A stretch of DNA of 64,000 nucleotides from Dillenia suffruticosa (lineage: Eukaryota > Streptophyta > Magnoliopsida > Dilleniales > Dilleniaceae). Below, one piece after another: positions 8,816-64,000 of the stretch. A program made the position numbers and the translations under genes. The number at the start of each line of letters is the position of its first letter. The stretch's first letter is position 1. The notes below the pieces were generated by a model. The model saw only the letters and a list, made by a program, of their open reading frames with translations, did not search any database and was not told the origin of the DNA. Location of the stretch: NCBI GenBank assembly GCA_033439265.1, contig JAVTVX010000027.1, positions 14,957,001-15,021,000 on the forward strand, in the 5' to 3' direction.

Positions 8816-9131
8816 ACTTAGTATCAAAGCCTTAAATCCACATCTCCGCCATTGTCATTCTGAACATTTAGTCACCTTCAAAATAAAAAATAAAAAATAA
8901 AAAATAAAATCATCAAAAAAAGTATTAAAAAATCATTAAAAAAACCTCACTTTGTTTTGTTTTTTTTTTTCTGTTTTTTTTAGAGAATACAAAGAATTAC
9001 TATCTTCCCCTTACTTTCTTTCATTCTTTTGCTAAATATTTGATTACAAGACAATCTCTCATGGGAAAACCACTCATGCAGGAATCTGCCCTCCAGAAAA
9101 TAAACACTTTAGCTAATCATCATCATTTTTT

Positions 9132-9389
9132 TTTTAAACGAGGGTTTTCAATTGTCGATCACAGAAATTTGGGTTCTTTTGTTTTTGGTGAGAATTTTTG
9201 TGATGGCTGATGGTATAGATGATGTAATGAATCTTGATTTGATTGTAACATTTATTTGGAATTTTTAAACGATGGTTTTCGATTGTCGGTCACAGAAATT
9301 TGGGTTCTTTTATGTTTGGTGAAAATTTTTGTGATGGCTGATGGTATAGATGGTGTAATAAATCTTGATTTGATTGTAACATTTATTTA
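9132..9389 (+). repeat. 128-bp tandem duplication inside unit B
   Basis: The block from about 9132 to 9259 (TTTTTAAACGAGGGTTTTCA ... ATTTATTTGGA) is followed directly by a second copy, 9260-9389, with about one difference per ten to fifteen bases. It duplicates the sequence leading into the RING fragment. Unit A has a single copy (about 7497-7625), so the duplication arose in unit B only. Confidence 0.75.
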
Positions 9390-13103: not shown

Positions 13104-13965
13104 ATGGCATCAAAATCGTTAATAGCTGACCTTAATAAGAGTGATAAGTTCAATAGCAACAATTATGACATTTTGCGCCATAAGATATGGTATGTGTTAG
13201 AAGAGCAGAATGCCTTAGAGGGTATCAACCATATCATATAAAACCCTAGAGTTGGAAATACTGCTTAATAGATAAGAGATCAAGAAGTTTACCAGGCATA
13301 GAAAAAGAAAGATTCAACTGATCGTGGCATCCTGGTTAGTTCTATGGTAGATGATCTCATTCACAAATGTGAACAATTTCCTACTGTTCATGACATATTA
13401 GTGCACCTCAAAGAGAAGTGTGGGGGTACTAATGTTACCCGCTTGAGGAGTTGACGATCAAGTTTGACACGTATAAAAAGAAATCTAATCACATATCAAA
13501 CTATACCGAGAACCATATCAAAAACGATAAGAGAATTGAAGTCAGCAGGTCATGTTTTATCTGATGAGCAACAAGTTCAGGCTTTAATCCGATCCCTTTT
13601 AGATCAGTGGGAGCACTTGAAAGTCAATTTGACTCATAATAATAACATTAAGACTTTCGCTAATGTTGCTCACCACGTAGAACTGAAGATAAGCGGCTTG
13701 GTGCTGCAAGATCGATTTCTAATGTCTTTGTAGCTGAGTCAAGTTCCCAAAAAGTTTCAGGTTTTAAGCGCAAGGGAAACAAGAACAAGGGCAAGAAATG
13801 GAAGGAAATTGCGGAAGGGTCTAAGAAGAACAATTCCAACCGTAAGAACAAACGTAAGCGGTTTTGGAAGAAGAAGGACAATAGCAAATTGAAGTGCTAC
13901 AATTGCAAATCTCTTAATCATTTCGCTCGAGAAAACCCCGAGCCGAAAAATGTAGCACCCTGTAA
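13104..13965 (+). pseudogene. Copia gag polyprotein remnant
   Basis: Start chosen at 13104 (ACC ATG GCA, with MASKSLIADLNKSDKFNSNN), because Copia gag begins with this segment before a W-x-L-x-x binding-fold motif. The UBN2-type core continues through VDDLIHKCEQFPTVHDI and IRELKSAGHVLSDEQQVQAL to LTHNNNIKTFANVA. A lysine-rich stretch (13760-13880) leads to the zinc knuckle at 13892-13936, CYNCKSLNHFAREN. It keeps C-x2-C-x4-H, but the final cysteine is replaced. Stops at about 13240, 13302 and 13454, and frameshifts, break the frame. Confidence 0.8.
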
Positions 13966-13989
13966 CGCTTCTCTAAGTGTTATATATGT

Positions 13990-15290
13990 ATCTAGTACTA
14001 TTTTACTTTCTAAATCTTATCTTGTATGGATTATAGATTCAGAAGCAACAGACCATGTGACGAGAGATCGAGAAGCTTTAGTGGACTTTCGTCGAGTTCC
14101 TCCTGGTGCAAGATGGATATACGTAGGGAATAATACGATGGTGGAAGTCAAAGGGATTGGCACTTGCAAACTAGAGTTACAAAGTAACCAAACCTTGATC
14201 TTACATGATATTCTCTATGCACCGAAAATTCGATGAAATTTAATCTCTGTTGTTGTTCTTCTTAGATTAGGTTATGACTTGAAATTTTCTCGTCATAAGA
14301 TTTGTATCTATAACAATAGTGTGGTTTATAGTACTAGATATCTATTAAATTAATTTTTTACTTTAGATTATAATAGACAAATGTTTAACTATTATTTTGA
14401 TCGTTACATTTCGTTAAATGTTTATTCTTTTAGTAATGCTAATATCGATGACATAGTATGACATGTTAGACTTGGTCACATTTGGTAGAACATAATGAAT
14501 CGATTTCTGAAAGCAGGACTATTGGGTTCGTTTACTAAAGTTGATTTAACGAATTGTAAATATTGTCTTGCTGGGAAGATGACCCAAAAACCATTTAGAA
14601 ATACCATAAGGGCCAAATTCCCATTGCAATTGGTTCACTCTGATATTTGTGGTCTAATGAATGTGAAATCTCGACATGGAACATCATATTTCATTACATT
14701 CATAGATGATTTCACGTGATTTAGTTATGTCTATTTGATTTCTTAAAAATCTGAAGCACTCGAATGTTTTAAACGTTATATGAATGAAGTGAAAAATCAA
14801 ATAGACAGAACAATTAAAACTTTGAGAATAGATCGAGAATGTGAATATCTATCAGATCAATTCAAGGATCTATATAGTGAAAAGGGAATCACTAGATAAT
14901 TGACTATTTCTCATACACCTCAATAGAATGGTATTTCTGAGAAAAGGAATAGAACATTGCTAAATATGACAAGGTCCATGATGGTGCAAGCTAACTTGCC
15001 TATTTTCTTTTGAAGAGATGCATTGTTAATTGAGACCTATATTTTGAATAGGGTGTGTTCAAAATCAGTACCAACTACGCCTTATGAACTATGGACCGGT
15101 AGAACACCGTGTTTGAATGGACTTAGACCTTAGGGTTCGGGAGTCTATATTCATGATTCTTCCAATAAGTTTGGAAAACTAGATTTCCGAGAAAAAAAGT
15201 GTATCTTTATAACATATTCTGACCAGTCAAAAGGTTATGTATTCATCGGTGAGCACAAAAATGGTACTGTAACCAAAATTGAATCACAAA
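13990..15290 (+). pseudogene. Copia protease / integrase remnant
   Basis: WIIDSEATDHVTRDREALVD at 14026-14085 corresponds to the Copia protease motif W..DSGA..H; here DSG has become DSE, which would abolish catalysis. The pre-integrase segment (NLISV, HVRLGH) follows, then CKYCLAGKMTQKPF and LVHSDICGLMNV, ending in TFIDDFT near 14719: the zinc-binding and first catalytic Asp region of integrase. Later integrase motifs (PQQNGISEKRNRTLLNM near 14920-14965) are present with a TAG in place of a glutamine codon. Many stops; nonfunctional. Confidence 0.8.
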
Positions 15291-17126
15291 ATATGACATT
15301 TTTGGAAAATGACTTTCCTAACAAAGATGATATAACGAAAGGAAAGCCTTTGTTTGAATTAAATAATTCAAATGATGGATATGTGCTGGATGGATCAAGG
15401 AAACCACAAGAAGTTGAATCCCTAGATGATCCCAGTGGGAGGGATTCAAATTCTAACCATTCAACCGATTCATTGATTCGGAAAAGTGTTAAGAAAGGTG
15501 TGCCCAAATATCATTACGAAATTGAAAGGCAGACTTTTATCATTTCTCCACAGGACGAGGATGAGCCAAAGAATGTAAACAAGGCTTTATCTGGTCCTGC
15601 CAAGGAAGAGTGGGTAAAAGCAATGGAGGAAGAAATGGAGTCGATGGATTCCAATCGTGTTTGGGAACTAGTTGATCTTCCACCTGGGCACAAACCTATT
15701 GGGAACAAGTGGGTTCTCAAGGTAAAACGTAAAACTAATGGAACAATTGAGAGATACAAAACTCGATTGGTGGCCAAAGGTTATACCCAACAAGAAGGTA
15801 TTGATTATGAAGAAACATTTTCTCCAGTAGTGAGATTTGGCTCTATTCGTCTATTGTTGGATATTATAGTCAATTTAGATTTAAAATTATATCAAATAGA
15901 TGTGAAAACTATATTTCTCAACAAATAACTTAAAGAAGAAATCTACATAGAATAGTTAGTAGGTTTCATAGTTAAAGACCAAAAAAACAAAGTTTACAAA
16001 TTGAATAGATCAATTTATGGTCTCAAACAGTTTTCAAGACAATAGTATTTGAGATTTCACATAACTGTAATCTTTTACGACTTCGTAATGATAGATGAAA
16101 ATCATTGTGTTTACATAAAAAAGTTCGATGATAAGTATGTATTTCTAAATCTGTATATCGATGATATATTGTTAACCAAAAATGATATGAAATATATCCT
16201 GAATATCAAAAGTTGGTTAGTATCAAATTTTGAGATGCAGAACATGGGTGAGACAGAGTACATATTGGGTCTTAAGATTCATAGAGATCGTTCCAAAAGA
16301 TTGTTAACCTTATCTCAAGAATCTTACATGAAAAATATTCTGGAACGATTTAAGATGGATAGCTATAAACCCATTGATACTCCTATGGTTAAAGGCAAAT
16401 GTTTAAGCTTGGCGATGTGCCCAAAAACTATTGAAAAAAAACACGAGATGTCAAAAGTACCATATTCCAGCGCTGTTGGGAGTTTGATGTACGCTATGAT
16501 GTATATTCGCCCTGACATCTGCTATGCTATGGGTTTGGTTAGCAGGTATCAATCCAATCCAGATCGGAATCACTAGACAGCTATAAATAGGATTTTGAGA
16601 TACCTAAAAGGAACTACAGAGTATTCCCTTTGTTATCAAGAAAATGATTTGTATTAAATGGATACACAGATACTGATTGGGTTGGGGATTAGATGAACAT
16701 AAATCCATCTCAGATTATATTTTCTTGCTAAATAATGGCACCATCTCTTGGAGAAGTAAAAAACAAACATGTATATCACTTTTCACAATGGAAGCAGAAT
16801 TTGTGGTTTGTGTTTTTACAGTTCAGGAATGTATTTGATTAATAAGGTTTTTATAACATTTGATAATTGTAACCGATTCAGTGGGAGTTGTGACAATTTA
16901 TTGTGATAGTCAATTAGCTATCGCTTATACGAAAGATCCCAAATATCATGGGAGAACAAAACACATAGATATAATATACAATTTCATTCGAGATATTATT
17001 AAGAAAGGGGAGGTGACGTTGAAGTATATGTCTACGCATATGATGGTGGCTGATCCGTTAACAAAACCTATATCTAGGGATGTATTTTTAAAGTATGTAA
17101 AGTTTTTGGAATTGTATAGAATGTAA
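15290..17126 (+). pseudogene. Copia reverse transcriptase / RNase H remnant
   Basis: The 211-codon frame at 15293-15928 carries EEWVKAMEEEMESMDSN, WVLKVKRKTNGTIERYKTRL and QEGIDYEETFSPVVRF, the conserved entry of Copia RT. YIDDILLT at 16158-16180 is the catalytic box (YVDD in most). The continuing frame to 16576 has EYILGLKIHRDRSKRLL and the PYSSAVGSLMYAM motif. RNase H ends at 16860-17126 with CDSQLAIAYTKDPKYHGRTK and MVADPLTKPIS. Stops at 15928, 15954 and 16576 among others break it. Confidence 0.85.
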
Positions 17127-21990: not shown

Positions 21991-23447
21991 ATACGGATAA
22001 AATGACCGAGGAGTTAAAGGATTCATACCATATAGACAAAGCATCGACTGCAATCTCTGCATTCTTTAGATTTCCGGTCATTACTATTAATATTTTGTAA
22101 TACCAATTCTCCAAGCTGTCCACAATAAAACAAATTTCAAAATTAATCACTATGTAACATCAAATTAATTAAACAAGCAGCCAATAAGGAGCCAATGAAT
22201 TTAATACATGAACCAAAGATGAAATTGACTGAATTTGATATCACATGAGTAGGGGCGGAGCCAAAAAAATTCTTCTTGAGGAGTCATAAAACAATAATTA
22301 ATTAAATTATAAAATAAAAATATATTAAAAAATTGCATAATTTCAATTAAAAATACAAAAAATATCAAACAAATTAAATAATTTGTGAAAATTATACTAT
22401 ATGCTTCTTTATTGATTCAAATTATTTATAATCGATTCTGAATGAAAAATATTAATAATTTCTTTTTCATTATAAATAACTAAATTATTTATAAGATATT
22501 CATCTTCCATTTTATTCCGCAACCTTATTTTCAAAATTTCAGTGCAGAAAAAACACTATATTTTATTAAATTAGGATTATACTTTTATTAAAAAAGTGTC
22601 ACTATATATAGATTTTTAATCTTAACACTAATGATAGACAATATTTTATGACCGTTGGGTTTACCAAAAATAGAGAATATCACAATTAGCTAATATAATT
22701 GATATAATATTTGACACACCTAAATCGACAAAATGTTTACACTCTAATATTGTACAAAAAGAACATTAATCATATATAAAATACAGTAACAGAATTATAG
22801 AAAGAATATTAACTAAATTATGAGACAATTAAATATTATACAATAGATAATGATTTCGATAATAATATGTGGAAATTGTAAAAATATAATATATAATAGG
22901 TAAAATTTTGGAAAGAATTGTCGGTTACTCAAAATGTCAACATGAAAAAAGGAAAAAAAAAATTGTAAAAGAATATAATGATATAGATTTTCAAAAAACA
23001 TTTTAAAAATATTTGTTTGCTCTTGTTAACTATTATTAGTTGTATTATTATGGCAGCTAATATTTTTTCCCTTCTTAGGGATAATTGATGGAAAGACACA
23101 GAAAATAGAAATATCACATTTCTAGAAAGGTAAAAAAATAATATATTTTTAAAAATTGTTTATCATATATATATCTACACACATATATTTTAAAGTTTAG
23201 AATATCCCGACTAGACCTCACAAAGTGTAAATGTCAAATAAATATTATTTTAAACTTTTAAAATATAAAAATTTTATTATTATTTTAAATAGTTCGAGAA
23301 GTCACAACTTTTCTTTGGGCACAAAGGTTAAAATTTAAATTTTTTTTTAAAAATTAAAAGTCTGCATATAAGATAAATAAGAAATAGATTTTTTTTTCAA
23401 AATTTGTTGATATTCAATTTCCAATAATTGTATATCAAATTTGTGTG

Positions 23448-23509
<62 letters not shown>

Positions 23510-24369
23510 CAAAGCATAACTCCAGAGGAAGCTGAGAGTTTGACAAATTCCCAAAGACCAGAAATTGCCTCAATTGAGAAACCATTCCAAGTTAAAGGAC
23601 ACCCACCACAAGCAACATACCCAAACATACCGAAAACCAAAACCCACCAAGAAACATTCAAAGTAGTAGCGACACCAATCATACCCAATTGAAATTTATA
23701 CACAAACAACCAACTCACAACGGCGTGCACCACAAAGGCCGCCAGTGATACCCAAGCAACTGCATGCGTTTTTAGCTGGCTTTGCAAGAACCTTTGCAAT
23801 GGAAATGCAAAAGCAAAGCTAAAGTGAATTGGTATCATCCAAATAGCTACAGCCCCAGATAGCTCAGAAACATTTTCAGTCTGTCCCATCAACTTCAATA
23901 AAGGTGAAGCAAACAGATACAAAGGCAATAAAAGAATGCAACACATGAGTAGCACTATCCATGAACGTTGCATGTAAACCCCTAACATGTAGTACTTTTT
24001 GGCTCCATAAGCTTGACCACATAATGTCTCCAATGCACTTGCCATCCCTAGCTATTTAAGAAGTAAAACCAAAAAGCATAGTCATTTCAAATTTATATTT
24101 ATAACTGAATCGGTTGATATATACAGGGGGTTCTAGTATTGTCTAGTTTCAATATGAATTATTTAAAATATTTTTTATAAGATACAAGAATAAAATAAAT
24201 AGTTGTTAGACGATGATGATTCAAAGATAGCAACCATATGAATATTAATACTAATAAAAATCATTGAAAAAAATTCCAATGAACTGATTCTTGGATTTGC
24301 AATAAGAAGGTAACTTTGAAAAGTTTGCCACATTTAGCAGGTTCAAAAATTTGCAGAAGGATCAAATTA

Positions 24370-24409
<40 letters not shown>

Positions 24410-24734
24410 AGAGAGGGAGAGAGAGAGAGAGAGAGATTACGAGGAGGCCAAAATCGAGGCCAACGATGACATTGTTGGATATGGAGATGGCGGCAAGCTC
24501 AGTGTTGCCAAGATGACCGGCAAAGGCTTGGGTGATAACAAGCATAGAGTAGGAGGCAATACGGCTGAAAATTGAAGGACCAACTATGTGCCATAGCTTT
24601 TTCGATTCGGCCCAAAACCTCTTTTTCAAATTTCCCCCATCTTGTTTTTCCTCTTCTAATGGTCCTACGGGTGTTGATGGCGAATCTTTCAACAGGGGCA
24701 CTTCTGACTCCCCTACATCTCCCTTGTACTTCAT
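18560..24734 (-). CDS. MATE family efflux transporter (DTX27-like), eight exons
   Basis: Exons on the minus strand: 24441-24734, 23510-24051, 22029-22115, 21682-21738, 20237-20475, 20006-20124, 18712-18801, 18560-18619. All introns are GT-AG and all phases join, giving 1,488 bases and 495 residues, normal for plant DTX proteins. The 87-bp and 57-bp mini-exons are typical of the family. The start at 24734 gives a ~45-residue acidic/basic cytosolic N-terminus before the first membrane segment ([20 protein letters not shown]). Two MatE halves follow, with the conserved [11 protein letters not shown] (about residues 109-119) and [11 protein letters not shown] (about 329-339). MATE proteins exchange H+ or Na+ for organic cations or metabolites at the plasma or vacuolar membrane; the substrate cannot be read. 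Introns 1 and 2 open with CT repeats a few bases after the donor. Only intact gene seen. Confidence 0.93.
19180..19285 (+). mobile_element. SINE-like retroposon 2 in MATE intron 7
   Basis: Homologous to the unit at 18160-18268: shared TTATAATAGACTCGAGTTCAAG-type stretch with the B-box-like GAGTTCAAG at about 19250. The A tail is reduced to AAAAAAA near 19275. It lies in the intron between exons 6 and 7 of the MATE gene (18802-20005), in antisense to the gene. Confidence 0.4.
21141..21188. repeat. (AT)n microsatellite in MATE intron 4
   Basis: About 20 TA units followed by a short GC-rich GCCCGCGCGCCCGC. It lies in the 1.2-kb intron between exons 4 and 5 and has no other feature around it that I recognise. 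Confidence 0.9.
21853..21888 (-). pseudogene. decayed duplicate of the 57-bp MATE mini-exon
   Basis: On the minus strand, TTTGTAG is followed by TGATGGCAATTAATGGCTGG, translating as MAINGWAII. The real exon 4 (21682-21738) reads AG, then CATGACAATCAATGGTTGGG (MTINGWEMM). About 20 of 26 aligned bases agree, and the splice-acceptor-like TAG is at the same place. It lies in the intron just upstream of exon 4. The downstream half of the exon and the donor are not conserved. Confidence 0.45.
21945..21987. repeat. (GA)n microsatellite in MATE intron 3
   Basis: About 20 GA units, reading as (CT)n on the gene's strand. It lies 42 bases from the donor of exon 3 (22029), so the sequence between donor and repeat is short. 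Confidence 0.9.
22116..23449. other. MATE intron 2 body, AT-rich
   Basis: Most of the 1.39-kb intron. The sequence GTAGGGGCGGAGCCAA at about 22251-22266 is a motif I associate with dispersed plant repeats; the following AT-rich ~900 bases may be the body of such an element, but I could not find its other end. No coding exon is visible. Confidence 0.4.
23450..23506. repeat. (GA)n microsatellite at the exon 2 splice donor of the MATE gene
   Basis: About 28 GA units. On the gene's strand the donor reads TTTG|GTACTCTCTC, so the repeat begins within the first few intron bases and forms the intron's 5' end. Confidence 0.95.
24373..24436. repeat. (GA)n microsatellite at the exon 1 splice donor of the MATE gene
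   Basis: A GA repeat of about 64 bases with two GGGA interruptions. On the gene's strand the donor is CTC|GTAATCTCTCTC, so the repeat starts five bases into intron 1. Read in frame it would extend exon 1 with SLSLS residues if the donor were missed. Confidence 0.95.
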
Positions 24735-24761
24735 ATTTGGTACTCCCTTGTTTCTCCTGTC

Positions 24762-24766
<5 letters not shown>

Positions 24767-24803
<37 letters not shown>

Positions 24804-24837
24804 AGAAGAAGAAGAAGAAGAAGAAGAAGAAGAAGAA
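24767..24837 (-). promoter_or_regulatory. (GAA)n/(GA)n tract upstream of the MATE start
   Basis: On the gene's strand, a CTT run (24799-24837) then a CT run (24767-24800) lie 33-103 bases before the ATG, followed by TGTGACAG, which could be a splice acceptor of a 5'-UTR intron. CT/GA-rich tracts near plant transcription starts can bind GAGA-type (BBR/BPC) factors and act as Y-patch-like promoter elements. Regulatory role is inference from position only. Confidence 0.45.
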
Positions 24838-24849
24838 AAAGGTTAAAAT

Positions 24850-52062: not shown

Positions 52063-53335
52063 AAAAATAGGCTCGGGTTGGGGTGGCCCAGCATACCTTC
52101 CATCACTGGCCCGAATTCTTAAGTTAATGAATTCAAATTGGACATGAAACGTTTGCCTATTTTTAAGAATATAAGAACTTTTTTTTTTCCTTTTATTTGC
52201 TTTTCAAGTTGAGAATATAAAGCACTTGAGATCACAGAGAAATGTTTACGCGGTTCCTGCAAAGAATGCCAGAGGAATCATGAATTCCAAGCCATTAATG
52301 GTCATGCTGCCAACACAGAGAAGCAAAAATAAATTAAACTCAAACAAAAGACACTAATATTTTTTTTGGGTGTATTTGAGAGTGTTCAAGTGTAGATAAC
52401 AGACGAGATGGATAAAGCATCCATAGCAACCTTCGCATTCTTTAGGTTGCCGGTCATTAGTATCAATATTTTGTAGTACCATACCTCCAAGCTGTTCAAC
52501 ATTAAAACAAATCAAATATAATATAGTTCAGAGTTTTCAGATTGATTTATAAAATTCGGTGTTTATGTATCCACCGAGCTTAAGTTTATACACAAACAAC
52601 CAACTCACAAACACAGGCGCTACTAAAGCCACAAAAGAAACCCAAGCAACTACAAGTGTTTTTAGTTGACTCTGAAAGAACTTCTGCGATGCATACACAA
52701 AGGCAAAGCTGAAGTGAAGTGGCACCATCCCAAGTGCCACAGCACCAGATAGCTCAGCCACATTTTTGGGTTGTCCCACTAACTTCAAGATCGGTGAAGC
52801 CAAGAGATGTATTGGCAATAGAAGAACCGAACATATGAAGAGAACTATCCATGAACGCTGCATGCACACGCCTAGCATATAATACTTTTTGGCTCCATAA
52901 GCTTTGTCCACATAACGTCTCCAAAGCAGTTGCAGTTCCTAACTATCAGAAAACAAAGAAAAAAAATATTAACTCTTTAGAGTAGACAAGTGTTTAATTT
53001 AACATATTAAACCTCAAATTTTACATAAATAATGTAAAGGAATAGGATATATCTTAGACTACATTTTAACCTTGACATATGTATGCATAGTTAGGCATAG
53101 TTCACTCTTATCTTTGAGTAGTTGTACATATAACTTACTCATGTATAAGATTTTTTTTTGATTTCTGTGCGAGTATATCGTTTTTCCGATGTAGAAAGGA
53201 ATTGATAGTTACCAAGAGGCCAACATCAAAGCCAAAGGTTAGATTGTTAGCAATAGCTATTGCGGCTAATTCAGTATCACCAAGATGACCAACAAAAATT
53301 TGAGTAACAACATGCAGAGTTGAGTAAGACCCTAA

Positions 53336-55384: not shown

Positions 55385-56752
55385 CTTGATCAAAATGAAG
55401 AGAATTATAATAAATGGAGAGAAATTGTATTTCTTCATTTGGACTGTTTGGATATTGATTATACTATTAGAAAGGACGAACGTGACCGATACCAATTCTG
55501 AGACTGATAAGATTTTTTATGAACATTGAGAGTGATCTAATAGTTTGAATACTATATTCAAAAAAAGTAAAATCTCAACTGATATTCGTGGTACGATCAA
55601 CCAACATATCAATATTCGTACTTTTCTTAACACTATAGATAAACAATTTACAATATCGAAAACGTTTTTGACTAGTACGCTTATTATGCAATTCTCCTTC
55701 ATGACGCTCACTACGATCTACATTGTGAGCGAACACATCATATGGATATGGGATATAGCGGTTCAGTTAAAAACCCTAGAGGTTGAGATGTTTGGATCAT
55801 TTTTTATACTCTTTATTCTGAACTCTCTCCTTTATCCCTATGATCCTTTTAAAATCTTCTATAACATACATAAGGAGAAATGGTCCATCAATACGTTGAT
55901 GGTCATTTGTGTACAAGAGTAAAGAATGCAGTTGATGAAGATGAAGTAGGATTCTGCAAGTGCACATGTGGCGGTGTAAGTAAAAAAGAAGAGCAAGGCC
56001 AATCCAAAACAAAATGGCACAAAACTCATTAATTTGTTATGAATCTTGTATGACTAGGATTTCTTATAACACACGGTGAATTGATTCGGGTCATAGTATT
56101 CATATTACGAATGTGTTGCAGAGGTTATAAAATCTATGAAAGTCAATGGATCATGAGTAATTCATCTATTCAGCCAACAAAATGTTCACGGGTAAATGAT
56201 ATTGGCGATTACGAGCTCATTCTGGTTAGCGAACATTTCTTTAAATTGGAAAGTGTGTTTTATGCATCTAAGTTTCATAGAAAATTAATTTTCGTTTCAA
56301 AACTTATACAACTCGATTACTCTTTCCAATTTAATAATAAAATGACATTTTTTTTGTTTCAAATATTGTTGGTTATGCTCCATTTTTGAATGGATTGTAC
56401 AATATTACTATTTTACAAAATAATGTTTGCATGAATATAATACATACAAGGGTTAAAAAAGTATCATTGAGGAAAACTTTTTCATATTGTGACACTGGAA
56501 ATTAGGACACATCTCCGTAAAGAAGATAGTAAAGTTGGTAAAATATGAAATACTTGATATCCTAAATTTTAGTAAATTTGACATTTGTGTAAACTGTATT
56601 AAGGGAAAGTAAACCAACAATACTTAAAAAGGTACTACAAAGAGTTCAGAATTGTTTGAAATTATACATACGGACATTTGTATTCTAGGTACAGATTTGT
56701 ATGATTATAGTTATTTCATTGTATTTATAGATGACTACTTACAATATATGTA
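55385..56752 (+). mobile_element. Copia retrotransposon fragment cut by the Tekay element
   Basis: Plus strand. Gag region: LDCLDIDYTI near 55440, then the frame 55545-55922 with STDIRGTINQHINIRTFLNT, AVQLKTLEVEMFGSFFILFI and NSLLYPYDPFKIFYNIHKEK, a common Copia gag of the MRDIAAQLKTLEV type. After stops, pre-integrase segments are readable (HWKLGHISVKKI near 56495) and the integrase entry CVNCIKGK...LFEIIHTDIC...FIVFIDDYLQYMYV ends at 56752, exactly where the Tekay LTR begins. The catalytic RT and RNase H part would be on the far side, outside the window. Many stops. Confidence 0.8.
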
Positions 56753-57000
56753 TGTAACACCGACACTGCGGTGTCCATACTAATGTATTGGTTTCGAAAT
56801 AAATAAATAAATAAATAAATATATATATAGAAATTTTATTTAATTATATTGGTGTTTGATTTTGGAGGTTTTTAAATTTTATTTTTTGGTATATTCTTAA
56901 ATTGCTGGGTTCGTGATCCAAATAAACCTCATTTGCATGAAATTCACATTCTAGTGAAAAATGAATACGAAATATATGTATATGTGTTAAAAAAAATGGA

Positions 57001-57072
57001 GACGCAGCGTTTTGGGGCAAAACGCTGCGTCCCCAAATTTGATTTGGGGATTAGGGTTGGAAACCCTAATCC
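57001..57072. repeat. three consecutive perfect inverted repeats
   Basis: Hairpin 1, 57001-57031: GACGCAGCGTTTTG, loop GGG, CAAAACGCTGCGTC (14-bp stem). Hairpin 2, 57031-57049: CCCCAAAT, loop TTG, ATTTGGGG (8-bp stem). Hairpin 3, 57048-57072: GGATTAGGGTT, loop GGA, AACCCTAATCC (11-bp stem). They touch or overlap by one or two bases, with three-base loops each. Confidence 0.95.
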
Positions 57073-58460
57073 CTCTCTCTCTCTCTCTCCCCGACTCTTC
57101 GTTTCTCTCCCCACCGTGGCGCCGCTCCTCCTTTGCCGCGAGCTCCGCTGCCAACAGCCCACCACCACCATCATCATCATCATCATTATCTTCTTCTTCT
57201 TCTTCTTCTTCTTCTTTCCCTCTCGATTTCTCTCTCATAGTTTCTCTCCCTCTCACGATTTCTCGCGATCGCTCTCCCTTCCCAATCACACACTGCCGTG
57301 AGCTCCACCACTAGCGCGCCACCGTGCGATCTCCCCCGCGCACCACATGCCACCGCGCGCGACTGCTGCGGCCTCCCGCGGCCTCCCACAAGCATGCGCC
57401 TCGGAGCGCAATGACCGTCTCCTCCCATGAGCCTCCGCGAGCGTAACCCAGCGCTTGCAGGCGATCGAGCCACAGCACGTCTTTTCGCCAGCATGCTATA
57501 GCGCAAGCGCGAGTGCACGATCGAGCGAGCACACCACAACTTGAGCACGCCACAACGCGCCTGCGTACGAGCGCTCGCCTGCGCTCGAGCGCGCGCCACC
57601 TCGTGAGTGCTCACGGCCCTCAATCCAATACGGCTCGCGAGCCACTGCAGGCCCGTAGGCCCATCAGCCGTAGGCCCGCCAGCCCGTAGGCCCATCAGCT
57701 CGCATGCTTGTCGGCCCGCTAGCACACTGGCGCGCTAGCCCGCTGACCCGTGAGTCCACTAGCTGAAGCCCACGGCCTGTGAATCTTTGCACAGGTAACT
57801 AACTTAGGGTTTTGCTTCCGATCTAAGTGTTTGAACCTAACTAATAAACCCTGTCTTGATAGGTAGTATTTTAGATCTTGGAATGATCGAGGAGACATTC
57901 GGACAAAGGTCTGCGATTCGAGAAAACCCTAGGTGAGGGATTTTGGACCCATTCGAGTTATTTATCGAATTTAGGGTAAAAATTTAGGATAATAAGTGTT
58001 GTATATGCATGAAAAGAGTCGGAATTGGAGATTTGAGTTTAGAAATTTTCAAAGAATTTCTACTTGTATAAGACAAACGATTTTAAGTGGAAATTGATAA
58101 TTCATTGCTTTAGGATAACATATTCGGGTTCAAAGAGGGAAGTTGAATTCGGATTGGTTTGGAATTGGGAGTGCACACCCTCCCTGAACAGTGAGTGGGA
58201 TTTTGACATTTTCTATTGATTGACAAATCATGTTTTACCGATTTTCAAACGACATGATTTCTATACGTGTGAAAACTAATTTTTTAGATTTTGATAGACA
58301 TATTTTTGTGACCATTGGAGTGTCCCAACTATTGATTTTATTGATCTGTATCCATGAATTTGATAACCGGATATTGTGTCATTCTTTTTAACATATTGAC
58401 ATATTTTAATACTTTTACTGTATTGACACGTAATTTTAAATGTATTTACATGTACTATTT

Positions 58461-58556
58461 GGGCTATACATCCGGCCGACGTTATGTTATGATGCATAGG
58501 GCTATATGCCCAGCCGACATGATGATGTGATGCATGGGGCTATGTGCCCGGCCGAC
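58461..58556 (+). repeat. 38-bp tandem repeat in the Tekay LTR
   Basis: GGGCTATACATCCGGCCGAC at 58461, GGGCTATATGCCCAGCCGAC at 58499, GGGCTATGTGCCCGGCCGAC at 58537: three copies spaced exactly 38 bases. Followed by three GGTGATAT units at about 58559-58581. Confidence 0.85.
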
Positions 58557-59044
58557 TTGGTGATATGGTGATATGGTGATATGCTTCCTATAGCATTCCG
58601 TAACTACGAAGGACATTTGGTAGAGGCACCCCTTATGCCCGGATACGTTTTGGCCGGAGGTATCCACCAAATCGTCATGTGTATGGATGTTCCAGATTGA
58701 CTCTCATCGGGGAGGACGTGAGTTTGCCTCTGTTTAACACTGGGTGGGACACCATACACGGCCGACTATATATATGTATTATTATTATCATTTACAGGTT
58801 AGTTGGAGTAGTCTGTGGTAAATATTGGGGTAAAGAGCCATTATTTGATATATGCATAGTAAAAACCCCCAATGCGCCCGTCCTTGATCTAGGTAGACTA
58901 TTGTCGAGAGTGTTTGTTCGGCCGGCTCTACATATATGACTTGATACATGGATGGATGCATATATTATTTTCTGATGTGTGCCTTGAGATATGTTTTACT
59001 CTGAAATAGTACGTTATTTTCGCACACTCGATATTATGTTACAG

Positions 59045-59059
59045 CTTGGGGACATTTGA

Positions 59060-59091
<32 letters not shown>

Positions 59092-59112
59092 GGCCCTTGC
59101 GCAAGGATGACA
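59045..59112 (+). pseudogene. U6 snRNA-derived segment at the LTR / PBS junction
   Basis: From GGGGACAT at 59048 to GGATGACA at 59112, the sequence follows plant U6 snRNA, with only three differences over 65 aligned bases, all C in U6 to T here. It includes the whole ACAGAGA box (GATACAGAGAAG, 59072-59083), the AGC triad (TTAGCATGGCCC) and the start of the internal stem-loop region (TGCGCAAGGATGACA). The first ~7 bases of U6 are altered (CTT-GGGG for CTTCGGGG) and the last ~27 (after GATGACA) are absent, replaced by GTTCGGT and the PBS. Same strand as the retrotransposon. It lacks an upstream U6 promoter (no USE plus TATA at the expected spacing) and a T-run terminator, so it is not a U6 gene. 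Confidence 0.85.
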
Positions 59113-59119
59113 GTTCGGT

Positions 59120-59131
59120 TGGTATCAGAGC
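59120..59131 (+). promoter_or_regulatory. primer-binding site of the Tekay-type element (tRNA-Met)
   Basis: TGGTATCAGAGC, complementary to the 3' end of plant initiator-Met tRNA, located seven bases after the U6-like GATGACA. Intact. Confidence 0.93.
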
Positions 59132-59354
59132 GCCTTAGGTTGGGCAAAGGGTAGTAAGAAAAGTATTCCCAAGTATATAGAAAAGTTTTCAATATATTAG
59201 AGAGTTTCATACAGTCATTTAAAATCCCCTATATGGTCGTAGACCAATAATTTCATTCATTTTAGGGGGTTAGTTACTATGTAACTAACCCTAATTCTTC
59301 AATCATGCCAAACTCTAGAGTTATATCTAATGAAAGTTCTCTCATTGTAGAATT

Positions 59355-60545
59355 ATGCTGCCTAGACGTGGTAGACCAACGGGACGCGGAGCTAGACTCG
59401 CGCTACCTGAGACTCCTCAAGTGCCTGACCCTTCGAGGGGACCTGTGACCCTTGGAGTGCCTGAGGCTGCTTCCTCTTCATGGGCGCGCTCTACAGTGCC
59501 TCCTCAGTCGGCTGCTCCAGCCGAGGTTCCACCACCGTCCCTTGAGGCGTTTAGACAGGTGTATGAGTGGTACACCTCCCACGGGGTTCAGATGCCACCC
59601 CCACCACCGCCAACGGTAGTACCGACTCCTATGGTCGTACCACCTTCAGTTGTACCATATCAGCCCCTAGTATTGGTCCTTCCTCAATTTCAGGACTTAG
59701 TGACACTACCTCCTTTACCTTGAGGCATATTCACAAACTCACCCAGTTGGTGAAGGAGGCGAGGCAGTTAGGCTGCTCGGAGTTTGCAAGAATAGGTGAT
59801 TCTACAGCAGCGAAGCACTGGATCAACCGCACCCGTAGAATTTTGACTGATATAGGTTTGAGCGAGGACTATTGGCTTCGGATAGCAGAGAGACTCTTAG
59901 ATGGTGACGCTCTCACTTGGTGGGAGGCGATTTGTGACGATGCTACCGAGCCACTGCGGTGGGAGGACTTCCTGCGAGAGTTCGATCACAGGTACTTCTT
60001 TGAGTTCTAGCAGGACTACAAGAGGGCAGCGTTTTTGTACTTGCGGTAAGGAACCAAGACAGTGACAAAGTATGAGACAGAGATGAGACGACTAGCTGCT
60101 TTCGTTCCAGACTTGACGACGCCGAAATAGTTAAGGTTCAAGTTTGAGAATGGCCTCAACTTGAACATCAGGAGGTATATGACAGTGACTTCTAGTCTCT
60201 CCTTTGCGGAGATCGTGGACTCAGCACTTAGGGTGGAGGAGATCGTCCGTGTTAAGGGCAGACAGCGGGAGTACAGAAAGCAAAGGAAGAAGAGATCTAG
60301 GGCTTCTTCGAACCAGGGTGCGAAGAAGGGCAGGACTTCAGGATATCAGGGAGGCTTTTCTCAGCCAAGACAGGCACATACTGGGCAGGATTCACGCAGC
60401 CCCTAGTGTCACTACTCAGACTTCAAATCAGCGGCACCCCTTTTGCCACCGATGTGATAGATACCATCCTTTTAGAGAGTGTAGGGTGCCTCTTACATGC
60501 TTCCGGTATGGGAAGCTAGGGCACATTAGGAGCACCTGCCCCTAG
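59355..60545 (+). pseudogene. Tekay-type gag remnant
   Basis: The first frame, 59355-59723, starts MLPRRGRPTGRGARLALPET and is proline-rich, as in the lineage. The capsid core is in another frame (59720-60010): AKHWINRTRRILTDIGLSED, LLDGDALTWWEAICDDATEP and WEDFLREFDHRYF, the Retrotrans_gag core. After a TAG at 60008 the match continues (FLYLR, YETEMRRLAAFVPDL, ALRVEEIVRVKGRQ). The zinc knuckle near 60501 is CFRYGKLGHIRSTC, with the second cysteine changed to tyrosine. At least one frameshift and three stops. Confidence 0.85.
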
Positions 60546-60955
60546 TTGGGATTGGGAGGTCAGATAGCTGCAGGACACTTGAGTGTTCCCCGAGGAGGAC
60601 AGCAGGAAACGCCTGCGCACTCGAGTCACACCGCTTCACGGATTACAGTCGAGAGCAACACGGTGCCAGAACCATCCCGACAACAGCAGAGGATACAGGC
60701 CCGTATATACGCAATAATGCAGGAGGACACTCAGGCGAGTCCTGACGTGATTATTGGTGCTCCTCCCACTGATCCTCATGTTTAGAGATGTTCATGTACT
60801 TTCTTTTGAGAACCATCACTAGTTAAAGCTGTAGAGGCTTAACTATGTTGGTTTGTACATACATTTTGATATTTATATATATATGTGTGGGTGTGTGTGT
60901 GAGCATATATTTTCTTCCATATTTATCAACTAATCTTTTATTTTCTCACATTAAG
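60546..60955 (+). other. gag-pol spacer
   Basis: A 79-codon frame (60546-60785) low in recognisable features covers the linker between gag and protease, then about 170 AT-rich bases with a TG repeat near 60885-60903. In intact Tekay elements this linker is continuous; here the AT-rich stretch looks like a small insertion or decayed sequence. Confidence 0.45.
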
Positions 60956-60959
60956 AGTT

Positions 60960-61346
60960 ATGAAAATATGGGAAGTCGATAGTTGTGTCCTATTTGATAC
61001 CGAGTCGAACCATTCGTATGTGAGAGTGTCTTTTGTCTATAGGTTGGGTAAGCTTTTGTCGCCACTTGATGATGAGATATTAGTCATCACTCCTCTCGGT
61101 GAGCAGATACTTAGAGATTCCGTCTACAAAGGGAGTAAGGTCATGGTCAGAGATACGATACTCGAGACAGACTTGATTCCACTTGAGATGATAGATTTTG
61201 ATGCCATCCTAGGGATGGATTGGCTAAGCATGCATAGGGTCTCAGTAGATTGCTTCACCAAAGAAGTGGAGTTTCAGAGACTCCAGGGGCCATTGTTAAG
61301 GTTCCTGGTGAGAGACGAGTATTATCTCGCTGTGTTGTTTTGGTGA
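60960..61346 (+). pseudogene. Tekay-type protease remnant
   Basis: 128-codon frame. VLFDTESNHSYVRVSFVYRL holds the retropepsin active-site position; the family motif is DTGATHSF, here DTESNHSY, so the essential glycine is replaced. FDAILGMDWLSMHRVSVDC at about 61200-61255 is the conserved region connecting protease to RT. Frame ends at TGA 61346. Confidence 0.8.
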
Positions 61347-61392
61347 TGAAGGCTAGGAGATTGATACGCCGAGGGTGAACGGCATACCTGAC

Positions 61393-62765
61393 TCATGTTA
61401 TTGACACCACTATGGAGGAGCTGAGACTTGAGGAAGTCCCAGTGGTGCAGGAGTTCCTAGATATATTTTCTGAGGAGCTACCCGGACTACCACCGGTTCG
61501 GAAGTTTGATTTCGAAATTGACCTAACTCCAGGGACCACTCCCATATCTATTTCGCCATACAGAATGGCGCCAACTGAGCTTAAAGAGCTCAAGGTCCAA
61601 TTGTAGGAGTTGCTGGACAAGGGTTTTATCCATCCGAACACTTCGCCTTGGGGTGCTCCGGTGTTATTCGTGAAAAAGAAGAACGGGACTTTAAGATTGT
61701 GTATAAACTATAGGCAGCTAAACAAGGTTTCCATCAAGAATCGGTACCCTCTACCGCGTATTGATGACTTATTTGATCAGCTCCAGGGTACGTGAGTTTT
61801 CTCAAAGATCGATCTTCGATCTGGATATCATCAGTTGCGGATTAGGGATGAGGATGTGCCCAAGACCGCATTCCACACCCAATATGGACACTCTGAGTTC
61901 GTGGTCATGCCGTTTGGGCTGACCAACACACCACCAGTCTTTATGGACCTGATGAATCGGGTTTTCCATGATTATTTGGATCGGTTCGTCATTGTGTTCA
62001 TCGACGATATTCTCGTATATTCGCAGAGCAATGAGGAGCATGCGTAGCACCTTAAGGTGGTGTTGTAGATTCTCCGTGAATGGCAATTGTATGCCAAATC
62101 CATCAAGTGTGAATTTTGGCTTAGACAGATTAGATTTCTTGACCATATTGTTTCTGCGAAGGGTATTTATGTTGACTCGCAGAAGGTGGAGGTCATATTA
62201 AGGTGGGAGCAGCCACAAACAGTGACCGAAGTGCGGAGTTTCCTTGGTCTTGTGGGGTATTATCGGCGGTTTGTAGAAAGATTCTCCCAGATCGTTGCTC
62301 CACTTTCTAGACTGACACGAAAGGACGTCAAGTTCATTTAGGACGATCGTTGTGAAGTGAGCTTTCATGAGCTCAAACAACGACTGATGTCGGCACCAGT
62401 TTTAGCTCTCCCCACTAACAGCCAAGAGTATGTTGTGTATAGTGATGCCAACAAGCAAGGATTAGGCTGCGTTTTGAAGCAGGATAGTCGGGTGATTGCT
62501 TATGCTTCGTGACAGTTGAAAAAGCATGAGCTGAATTATCCGACGCATGATTTAGAGTTAGCAGCCGTAGTCTTTGCATTAAAGATATGACGGCATTATC
62601 TTTATAGAGTGACTTGCAGAGTTTTCACTGACCATCAGAGTCTGAAGTATTTGTTCACTCAGAGGGAGCTAAACCTCAGACAGAGACGATGGTTAGAGTT
62701 GCTGAAAGATTATGATTTGATTATAGATTATCATCCGGGCATGGCGAATGTTGTGGCACGATGCT
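61393..62765 (+). pseudogene. Tekay-type reverse transcriptase / RNase H remnant
   Basis: [20 protein letters not shown] leads in at 61470. [62 protein letters not shown] and [11 protein letters not shown], so the catalytic IDD is intact. Then [19 protein letters not shown]. RNase H: VVYSDANKQGLGCVL, LNYPTHDLELAAVVFALKI and [20 protein letters not shown]. Stops at 61605, 61796, 62047, 62067, 62339, 62511 and 62588 each match a single C-to-T or G-to-A change from the expected codon (Q, R or W). RNase H runs to the sequence PGMANVVA near 62757. Confidence 0.88.
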
Positions 62766-63485
62766 TAGTGTACCAGTAGGTGAAGGTAGAGTATCAGCGT
62801 CCAGCGGGTACGCTACAGTCTCTTTCCATTCCTGAGTGGAAATGGAAGCATATTACTATGGACTTCATGATGGAGTTGCCACGGACTTCTACGCGGCATG
62901 ATGCGATTTGGGTGATTGTCGATCGACTCACCAAATCTGCACATTTTATCCCTACCCACGGTGATTATTCCTTGAAGGCGTTGGCACATCTCTATATTGA
63001 TACCATAGTTCGGATTCACGGTGCCTATGTCTATTGTTTTAGATAGGGATCCCAGATTCACATCTAAATTTTAGCCCAGGTTGCAGGAGACAGCACTAGA
63101 CTAAACTTTAGTACGGCATATCATCCTCAGACAGACGGCCAGTCAAAGAGGATGATTCATACACTTGAGGATATGTTTCGGGCATGTGTCATTGATTTTC
63201 ATGGTTGCTGAGATCGATACCTTCCATTGGTTGAGTTTGCATACAATAACAGTTACCAGGCGAGTATCGGAATGTATCGGAATGCTTCCATATGAGGCAT
63301 TGTAAGGGAGGCGATGCCGCACACCTCTGTATTGGGATGAGGTTGGTGAGAGGCGCATCAGCAGCATAGAGCTTGTTGAGGAGACGAAAGAGAAGGTGGG
63401 GATCATCCGCGATAAGATAAAAGCTCTCAGGATCAGCAGAAGACGAATGCGGATCGGAGGCGAAGACCTTTTGAGTTCGAGGTTG
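62760..63485 (+). pseudogene. Tekay-type integrase with the N-terminal domain deleted
   Basis: Directly after the RNase H end the sequence reads CLVYQ, stop, VKVEYQRPAG, which in intact elements is the segment after the HHCC zinc-binding domain; about 180 residues are missing. The core follows: WKHITMDFMMELPRTSTRHD (first catalytic Asp), VIVDRLTKSAHFIPT, then, past stops, [20 protein letters not shown] and VEFAYNNSYQ. After about 63290 only fragments are readable until FEVGDMVLLR. Confidence 0.8.
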
Positions 63486-63490
63486 GAGAC

Positions 63491-63871
63491 ATGGTACTTT
63501 TACGGATCTTGCCTTGGAAAGGGATGATTCGGTTTAGACAACGGGGCAAGTCAAACCCCAGGTATGTTGGACCCTTCCGTATTCTTGAGAAGATCGGAAG
63601 TGTAGTATATAGATTGGAGTTGCCAGAGGAGTTGTCACGTATCCACGATATATTCCATGTCTCCGTACTTAAGAAGTATATGACGGATCCATCACATATG
63701 TTAGAGCCTCCGCCAGTTGAGTTACGGGAGGATTTGAGTTTACCTATACAGCCCGTGGTCATCCTTGATAGACAGATCAGGAAACAGCGAAACAAGAAAG
63801 TCCTGTTAGTTCGTGTTTTGTGGCAAGCGACCAAGTCGAGGAGGAGACTTGGGAGCCAGAGCATATTATGA
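63491..63871 (+). pseudogene. integrase C-terminus and chromodomain of the Tekay-type element
   Basis: An open 126-codon frame: RYVGPFRILEKIGSVVYRLE, LPEELSRIHDIFHVSVLKKY, then PVELREDLSLPIQPVVILDR and RNKKVLLVRVLW, a chromodomain of the Tekay/Del type that would direct insertion into heterochromatin by binding modified histone tails. The final part should continue as W..EEATWE..; the frame instead passes into KSRRRLGSQSIL, a one-base shift (SRGGDLGARAY in the other frame). The best preserved part of the element. Confidence 0.85.
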
Positions 63872-63952
63872 GGGGACAGTACCCCCATTTATTCTTTGAG
63901 TAGTTTTCTATCCCCGTACAACTTCCTTTTCATTTCGAGAACGAAATTTGTT

Positions 63953-63969: not shown

Positions 63970-64000
63970 TATAACGTCGACACTGCGGTGTCCGTACTAA
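63970..64000 (+). repeat. start of the Tekay-type 3' LTR
   Basis: TATAACGTCGACACTGCGGT matches the 5' LTR start at 56753 with TG changed to TA. The remainder, including whether the U6-like segment recurs, is beyond the window. Confidence 0.85.

Follow-up and report, generated by a model that had tools for sequence, protein, structure and literature searches.

How does a piece of spliceosomal RNA come to lie at the boundary between a long terminal repeat (LTR) and the primer-binding site (PBS) of a retrotransposon? The question is raised by a 64,000-nucleotide stretch of the Dillenia suffruticosa genome (contig JAVTVX010000027.1, positions 14,957,001 to 15,021,000; referred to as the window), in which a sequence-only reading had described about 68 bases of U6 snRNA in the last part of the 5′ LTR of a Tekay element. 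Our answer, which we hold to be probable while leaving appreciable room for others, is that a single repair event left the segment as a scar in the 5′ LTR of an old copy of Tekay type, a gap having been filled by U6 RNA or by DNA copied from it. Table 1 collects the features of the locus.

Table 1. Features of the host element and of the U6-derived segment (positions in the window unless stated otherwise)
Feature	Position	Strand	Remarks
Left target-site duplication ATGTA	56748..56752	.	Right ATGTA copy at 66882-66886 (extended coordinates, outside the window)
5′ LTR	56753..59112	+	2360 bp, TGTAAC...TGACA; compared with the 2912-bp 3′ LTR
Native LTR sequence GTTACAGCTT up to the left junction	59038..59047	+	Relatives continue into TTTGACACTCC or close variants
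U6 snRNA-derived patch	59048..59112	+	U6 nt 9-73, 62/65; last 5 bases TGACA common to the native LTR end
Spacer GTTCGGT, LTR end to PBS	59113..59119	+	Identical in 8/12 other right flanks, 1 base off in 4
PBS TGGTATCAGAGC	59120..59131	+	Presumed tRNA-iMet type
Decayed gag-pol region	59358..63903	+	Pfam RVP_2, RVT_1, RT_RNaseH, SH3_Tf2-1; terminal TWE chromodomain motif
3′ LTR start	63970..64000	+	Continues to 66881 past the window; full native U5, without U6

The segment matches plant U6 snRNA from nucleotide 9 through 73, with 62 of 65 positions identical; the reference was the canonical sequence, which was also read in published tea U6 (PMC4929424). A search of published text located the canonical U6 start in 12 papers and the TTTG variant present in the window in no paper. 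The Rfam U6 family (RF00026) matched 59038-59142 with 73.7 bits (cut-off 44, E = 9e-17), the only match of any Rfam family in the 64-kb window at the gathering threshold. These results bear out the earlier identification as U6, its sense orientation relative to the host element, and its place at the 5′ LTR/PBS junction, where seven bases separate the end of the segment (59112) from the start of the PBS (59120); the length of about 68 bases shrank to 65. Also upheld was the claim that all three differences from canonical U6 are C to T and reflect decay after capture: they lie at 59056 (CHG context), 59057 (CG), and 59097 (CHG).

The segment is truncated at both ends and lies wholly within the bounds of the U6 transcript. 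No U6 promoter was recognizable upstream of it, the best match to what we take to be the USE motif having 5 mismatches, compared with 0 to 2 in 17 of the 18 intact U6 genes of the same genome and 5 in the remaining one. RNA folding of 59030-59160 was unremarkable (z = −0.58), and a U6 28-mer found no match among the viral contigs searched.

The host element has LTR ends of the TG...CA type, with a TGTAAC start, a TGACA end, and a 5-bp duplication (ATGTA/ATGTA); the 3′ LTR begins with TA instead of TG, a single change. Its PBS, which presumably matches tRNA-iMet, begins after a gap of 7 nt from the 5′ LTR. The same 12-mer is given as a PBS in PMC7215508, and gaps of up to 3 nt between LTR and PBS are described for sugar-beet chromoviruses (PMC3605345). 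Internally, 4 of 10 reading-frame pieces gave Pfam calls above the curated cut-off (RVP_2, RVT_1, RT_RNaseH, and SH3_Tf2-1, in separate pieces), and there was no Pfam call for an integrase core in the piece tried or for a chromodomain in the element. The piece at 63820-63900 contains EEETWEPE, which fits the Tekay motif EEXTWEXE, and the second Tekay motif given in the same source, (K/R)-X-(L/T)-R-X-(k/r), here reads RKQRNK, with Q replacing L/T (PMC3350952). The element is a likely, though unproven, Tekay-lineage chromovirus. Its internal region is decayed, with many frame breaks (17 stops per 1376 codons of hand-picked frame pieces). Searches of viral contigs with the reverse transcriptase piece returned 4 pattern stretches and no relatives, and those with a PBS 15-mer returned 45 stretches, all in unrelated context by eye, as were the 3 stretches found in genome contigs with a 19-mer spanning spacer and PBS.

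Several other features of the window were noted in passing. By eye, the region linking RNase H to the integrase core, where the integrase zinc finger normally lies, appears to be missing from pol at 62740-62810. The LTR contains a perfect 13-bp inverted repeat (GACGCAGCGTTTT / AAAACGCTGCGTC) flanking GGGGC at 57001-57031 and a 38-bp unit repeated 2.8 times at 58461-58567. Outside the element, a 131-bp tandem duplication occupies 9131-9388 (copies 93% alike), remains of a Copia-type retrotransposon were recognized by eye from open frames at 13664-16576, and related fragments on the minus strand at 23347-24842 and 52537-52938, the second apparently broken, resemble pieces of a transporter that we take to be of the MATE type.

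Whether U6 belongs to the LTR can be read from the partner LTR. In extended coordinates the 3′ LTR (locus L079) spans 63970-66881, is 2912 bp long with a full native U5, ends in GGGGCGTGACA, and contains no U6. ATGTA comes directly after it, matching the five bases ahead of the 5′ LTR; this is therefore a single integration, with U6 in the 5′ LTR only. Native positions 66205-66876, amounting to 672 nt of U5, have no counterpart in the 5′ LTR, where 60 nt of U6 plus the common TGACA stand in their place. Put differently, 677 nt of native LTR follow the counterpart of base 59047, and the 5′ LTR represents them only by the 65-nt segment. The U6 segment is thus a replacement of U5 and not a simple insertion: as in a deletion with filler, native sequence was lost and foreign sequence took its place, in one LTR of one copy. 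We rejected a layout that puts the LTR end at GTTACA (59043) and U6 in the spacer ahead of the PBS, as both the relatives and the 3′ LTR show native LTR continuing for those 677 nt after the counterpart of 59047.

The two junctions differ. At the right, U6 nucleotide 73 is joined to GTTCGGTTGG, and TGACA (5 nt) is common to U6 and the native LTR terminus. At the left, GCTT abuts GGGG with no common base at the joint, and U6 itself reads CTTCGGGG at this position; as aligned, the left junction appears to be without clear homology, and an overlap of 3 nt (CTT), one base being skipped, may nevertheless be present. Of the micro-homology earlier suggested for both flanks, that at the 3′ side held, as TGACA of the native LTR terminus rather than GACA, and the GGGGAC at the 5′ side proved to be U6 only, since relatives carry CTTTGACACTCC or close variants there. 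No target duplication above chance surrounds the segment (longest near repeat, 5 nt). The flank repeat ACAGCTTGG/ACAGTTCGG was considered as a target duplication and rejected, with 662 of 1000 shuffles scoring as well.

To place the element among its relatives, we searched the host genome (596 Mb, 37 contigs) with 58900-59250, scored 40 of 2562 candidate copies, and fetched 30 loci, the element's own included. The 39 other scored matches form two groups, ending at 59041-59047 or starting at 59107-59108, with one (L063) reported from 59089. BLAST detected U6 at the element's own locus only and in 0 of the 29 other fetched loci. Left flanks were represented by 27 matches, and all 26 outside the 5′ LTR itself, one of them being its own 3′ LTR (L054), pass, after GTTACA or a sequence close to it, into native U5, in most cases TTTGACACTCC. 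Among 13 right-flank matches, each of the 12 others has the spacer preceded by the native end of the LTR, GTGACA or something close to it. In nine other loci both flanks matched, with 664 to 685 nt between the BLAST matches, and the intervening stretches that were read, in four of the nine, are native U5. One of the 12 right-flank matches belongs to L056 (G000:C15:9145379-9145520), where inspection by eye showed the CCCATAGGCCCATCAG region joined directly to the final 16 nt of the LTR, without U6; judged in this way, it is a second family copy with a deletion ending near the LTR terminus. The earlier reading had asked for comparison with the 3′ LTR and relatives, and the absence of the segment from the copies examined points to a one-off event, yet, with 672 nt lost, not to a simple insertion.

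U6 has left other copies in this genome. In a genome search with RF00026, 48 of 71341 candidates were scored and all 48, including the window's own match, exceeded the cut-off. Counting as genes those that are full length and at least 98% identical, the 47 other scored loci comprise 18 genes and 29 diverged copies. Flanking repeats of at least 8 nt accompany 9 of the 29 diverged copies, compared with none of the 18 genes and 3.8% of 2000 random placements; 7 of these 9 repeats, which are 8 to 16 nt long, lie within 7 nt of both U6 ends. Eleven of the 29 end at nucleotides 87-91. Nearest in extent to the patch is L107, with U6 nucleotides 3-71 and a 16-nt flanking repeat. These sequence features indicate that reverse-transcribed U6 RNA has probably entered the host genome repeatedly; not all 29 diverged copies need be retrocopies, because 20 of them lack a flanking repeat of at least 8 nt. 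Repeated reverse transcription of U6 into the genome is known from mammals (PMC4476161). The 29 diverged copies (loci L098-L126) appear to provide a set of 3′-truncated U6 retrocopies with a preferred end point (nucleotides 87-91) in a plant genome.

The age of the patch can be set against that of the insertion. The LTR pair differs by 185 transitions and 42 transversions over 2195 aligned positions (K2P 0.114), which gives an insertion age of about 4.4 My at 1.3e-8 substitutions per site per year and about 8.1 My at 7e-9. With approximate site counts, transitions per C/G site per lineage came to 0.085 in the LTR next to the patch (57800-59047) and ranged from 0.069 to 0.099 across four LTR segments; the patch, with 3 changes at 32 C/G sites, stands at 0.094. 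The Poisson probability of at least three changes is 0.51 at the insertion age, 0.16 at half that age, and 0.03 at a quarter, and that of exactly three is 0.221 at full and 0.108 at half age. Three changes are few and only say that the patch appears old, dating to near the insertion, because its decay about equals the LTR divergence.

The repair reading would run as follows. The 5′ LTR would have broken after integration, probably soon after, 672 nt of U5 being lost. On the PBS side, the 3′ end of the minus strand, finishing in the complement of TGACA, may then have annealed to nucleotides 69-73 of U6 RNA or of a DNA copy; a polymerase would have copied U6 back to nucleotide 9, and the new end would have been joined to GTTACAGCTT without clear homology. 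We favor this course because the element is one integration with a perfect ATGTA duplication and a native, U6-free 3′ LTR, and because U6 is absent from relatives, whose left (26/26) and right (12/12) flanks are native. It is further supported by TGACA being common at the right junction with no clear homology at the left, by a segment that lies inside the transcript with no recognizable U6 promoter element upstream, by the 29 diverged U6 matches, which suggest that this genome made U6 retrocopies repeatedly, and by the family copy L056, in which, too, sequence is missing almost to the LTR end. In yeast and plants, organelle DNA is described as being captured at breaks as filler, through 1 to 7 bp of micro-homology or by blunt joining (PMC7037861). 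Two points tell against a break and patch. The timing best fits capture at insertion, which would be at least as compatible with a reverse-transcription event, and for random breakage a right junction exactly at the LTR terminus is somewhat coincidental, given that U6 contains 70 of the 673 5-mers of the native sequence that was lost.

The polymerase in such a repair may tentatively be named, as a special case that is contained in the repair reading and claims only part of its probability: a LINE-type reverse transcriptase, primed from an existing break or nick, could have copied U6 RNA directly. Having made no endonuclease cut of its own, it would therefore leave no target duplication, and a deletion besides. 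Mammalian L1 is described as making snRNA copies that are truncated at the 3′ end and show complementarity at that junction (PMC4476161), and L107 shows that a U6 copy flanked by a 16-nt repeat can be close in extent to nucleotides 9-73. Against the involvement of LINE machinery stand the missing target duplication (the best flank repeat being no better than most shuffles), the 5′ end at U6 nucleotide 9, and the 672 nt lost.

The most serious competitor, unlikely as it is, places the event late in reverse transcription, after the second strand transfer. As minus-strand synthesis brought the left LTR to completion, the enzyme would have left the element at TGACA for U6 RNA packaged in the same particle, copied U6 to nucleotide 9, and returned to U5 with a skip of 672 nt, and the copy would have integrated with unequal LTRs. 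Patch decay (3/32) indeed resembles that of the LTR (0.085 per C/G site per lineage), and the switch point lies at most 12 nt from the PBS, where synthesis of the left LTR starts. Particles of MLV and RSV hold U6 at about one per virion, and the patching of host RNA into retroviral products via micro-homology has been described (PMC4997597). Two jumps and a large skip are required, however, in one LTR only, with a normal 3′ LTR, and packaging of U6 by Tekay particles would be an assumption made by analogy with retroviruses. Such a course of events is expected to be far rarer than an ordinary deletion or filler in an old LTR. We prefer a break followed by patching because only one LTR is affected and because deletions are common in old elements; that the element's own reverse transcriptase switched onto co-packaged U6 RNA in the last stage of left-LTR synthesis, giving a copy whose LTRs were unequal from the start, we rate a shade lower still than a late jump in general.

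An earlier point in the same cycle was also considered, namely, capture during minus-strand strong-stop synthesis. Both LTRs derive their U5 from one strong-stop DNA, so capture at that step would place U6 in both; this course is rejected because the 3′ LTR is without U6. Sabot and Schulman describe the reverse-transcription process as yielding an identical pair of LTRs (PMC1950507).

A U6-bearing subfamily, in which U6 belongs to the LTR and has spread with the element, is highly improbable. It would be suited by the location of U6 where the LTR ends and by a terminal CA like the native one; against it stand the U6-free 3′ LTR of the element and the 29 other fetched loci without U6, and the PBS-like 11-mer TGGTATCAGAG occurs within 400 nt, on either side and either strand, of 0 of the 47 other scored U6 loci. 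U6 as a feature of the family's LTR, as first proposed, is accordingly rejected, and is refuted for the examined copies (40 of 2562 element copies and 48 of 71341 U6 candidates scored); the corollary that element RNA carries U6 in U5 finds no support as a family trait. An assembly error that joined U6 to the element can scarcely be credited either: the U6-LTR join is indeed a single occurrence in one assembly, but the segment has three C to T changes, a level of decay close to that of the LTR around it, and a misjoin to any of the 15 (of 47) other U6 loci that contain the exact canonical 65-nt segment would be unchanged, an argument that applies to these 15 and not to the remaining loci.

Several known systems offer a comparison with the patch. 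Filler DNA at junctions formed in double-strand-break repair (PMC7037861; for numts, PMC2567098) likewise consists of a foreign segment with one-sided micro-homology. The experimental filler captures cited in PMC2567098 involved deletions in most cases, comparable to the 672 nt lost here, whereas the numt captures described there often occurred without deletion. What differs from filler DNA is the donor, a spliceosomal RNA sequence, and the site, the LTR/PBS boundary. The 3′-truncated snRNA retropseudogenes made by LINE machinery (PMC4476161) share with the patch a 3′-shortened U6 and complementarity at the junction; the patch, unlike them, has no target duplication, an incomplete 5′ end, and a loss of 672 nt of target. 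In U6/LINE-1 chimeras, U6 also lies in sense to the retrotransposon and template choice is likewise presumed (PMC13174262, PMC4476161), but these chimeras, as described, carry full-length U6 at the LINE 5′ end, and in the present case part of an LTR has given way to a fragment of U6.

Among LTR elements, Cassandra TRIMs contain 5S RNA in their LTRs, and thus also place the sequence of a Pol III transcript close to a PBS reading TGGTATCAGAGC (PMC7215508). In the account given there 5S is universal and its promoter boxes are kept, whereas the U6 segment occurs in one LTR of a single copy, with no promoter found. Foreign sequence likewise entered the plant LTR elements Veju-L and BARE-2, which are described as altered through abnormal template switching (PMC1950507, PMC13317346); those became families or subgroups, but the U6 patch is a single scar among the copies examined. 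Titles and abstract openings among the literature matches listed contained no report of U6 at an LTR/PBS junction, which does not establish its absence from print.

The U6 patch is a curiosity in one old copy, not a new kind of element. It shows that striking fusions in a 5′ LTR need comparison with the 3′ LTR before they are read as a family trait, and it provides a dated, well-bounded case of a spliceosomal RNA sequence serving as a patch in plant DNA. If a late template jump were the true explanation, the segment would be fossil evidence that U6 RNA was present in plant chromovirus particles and was used there as a patch template.
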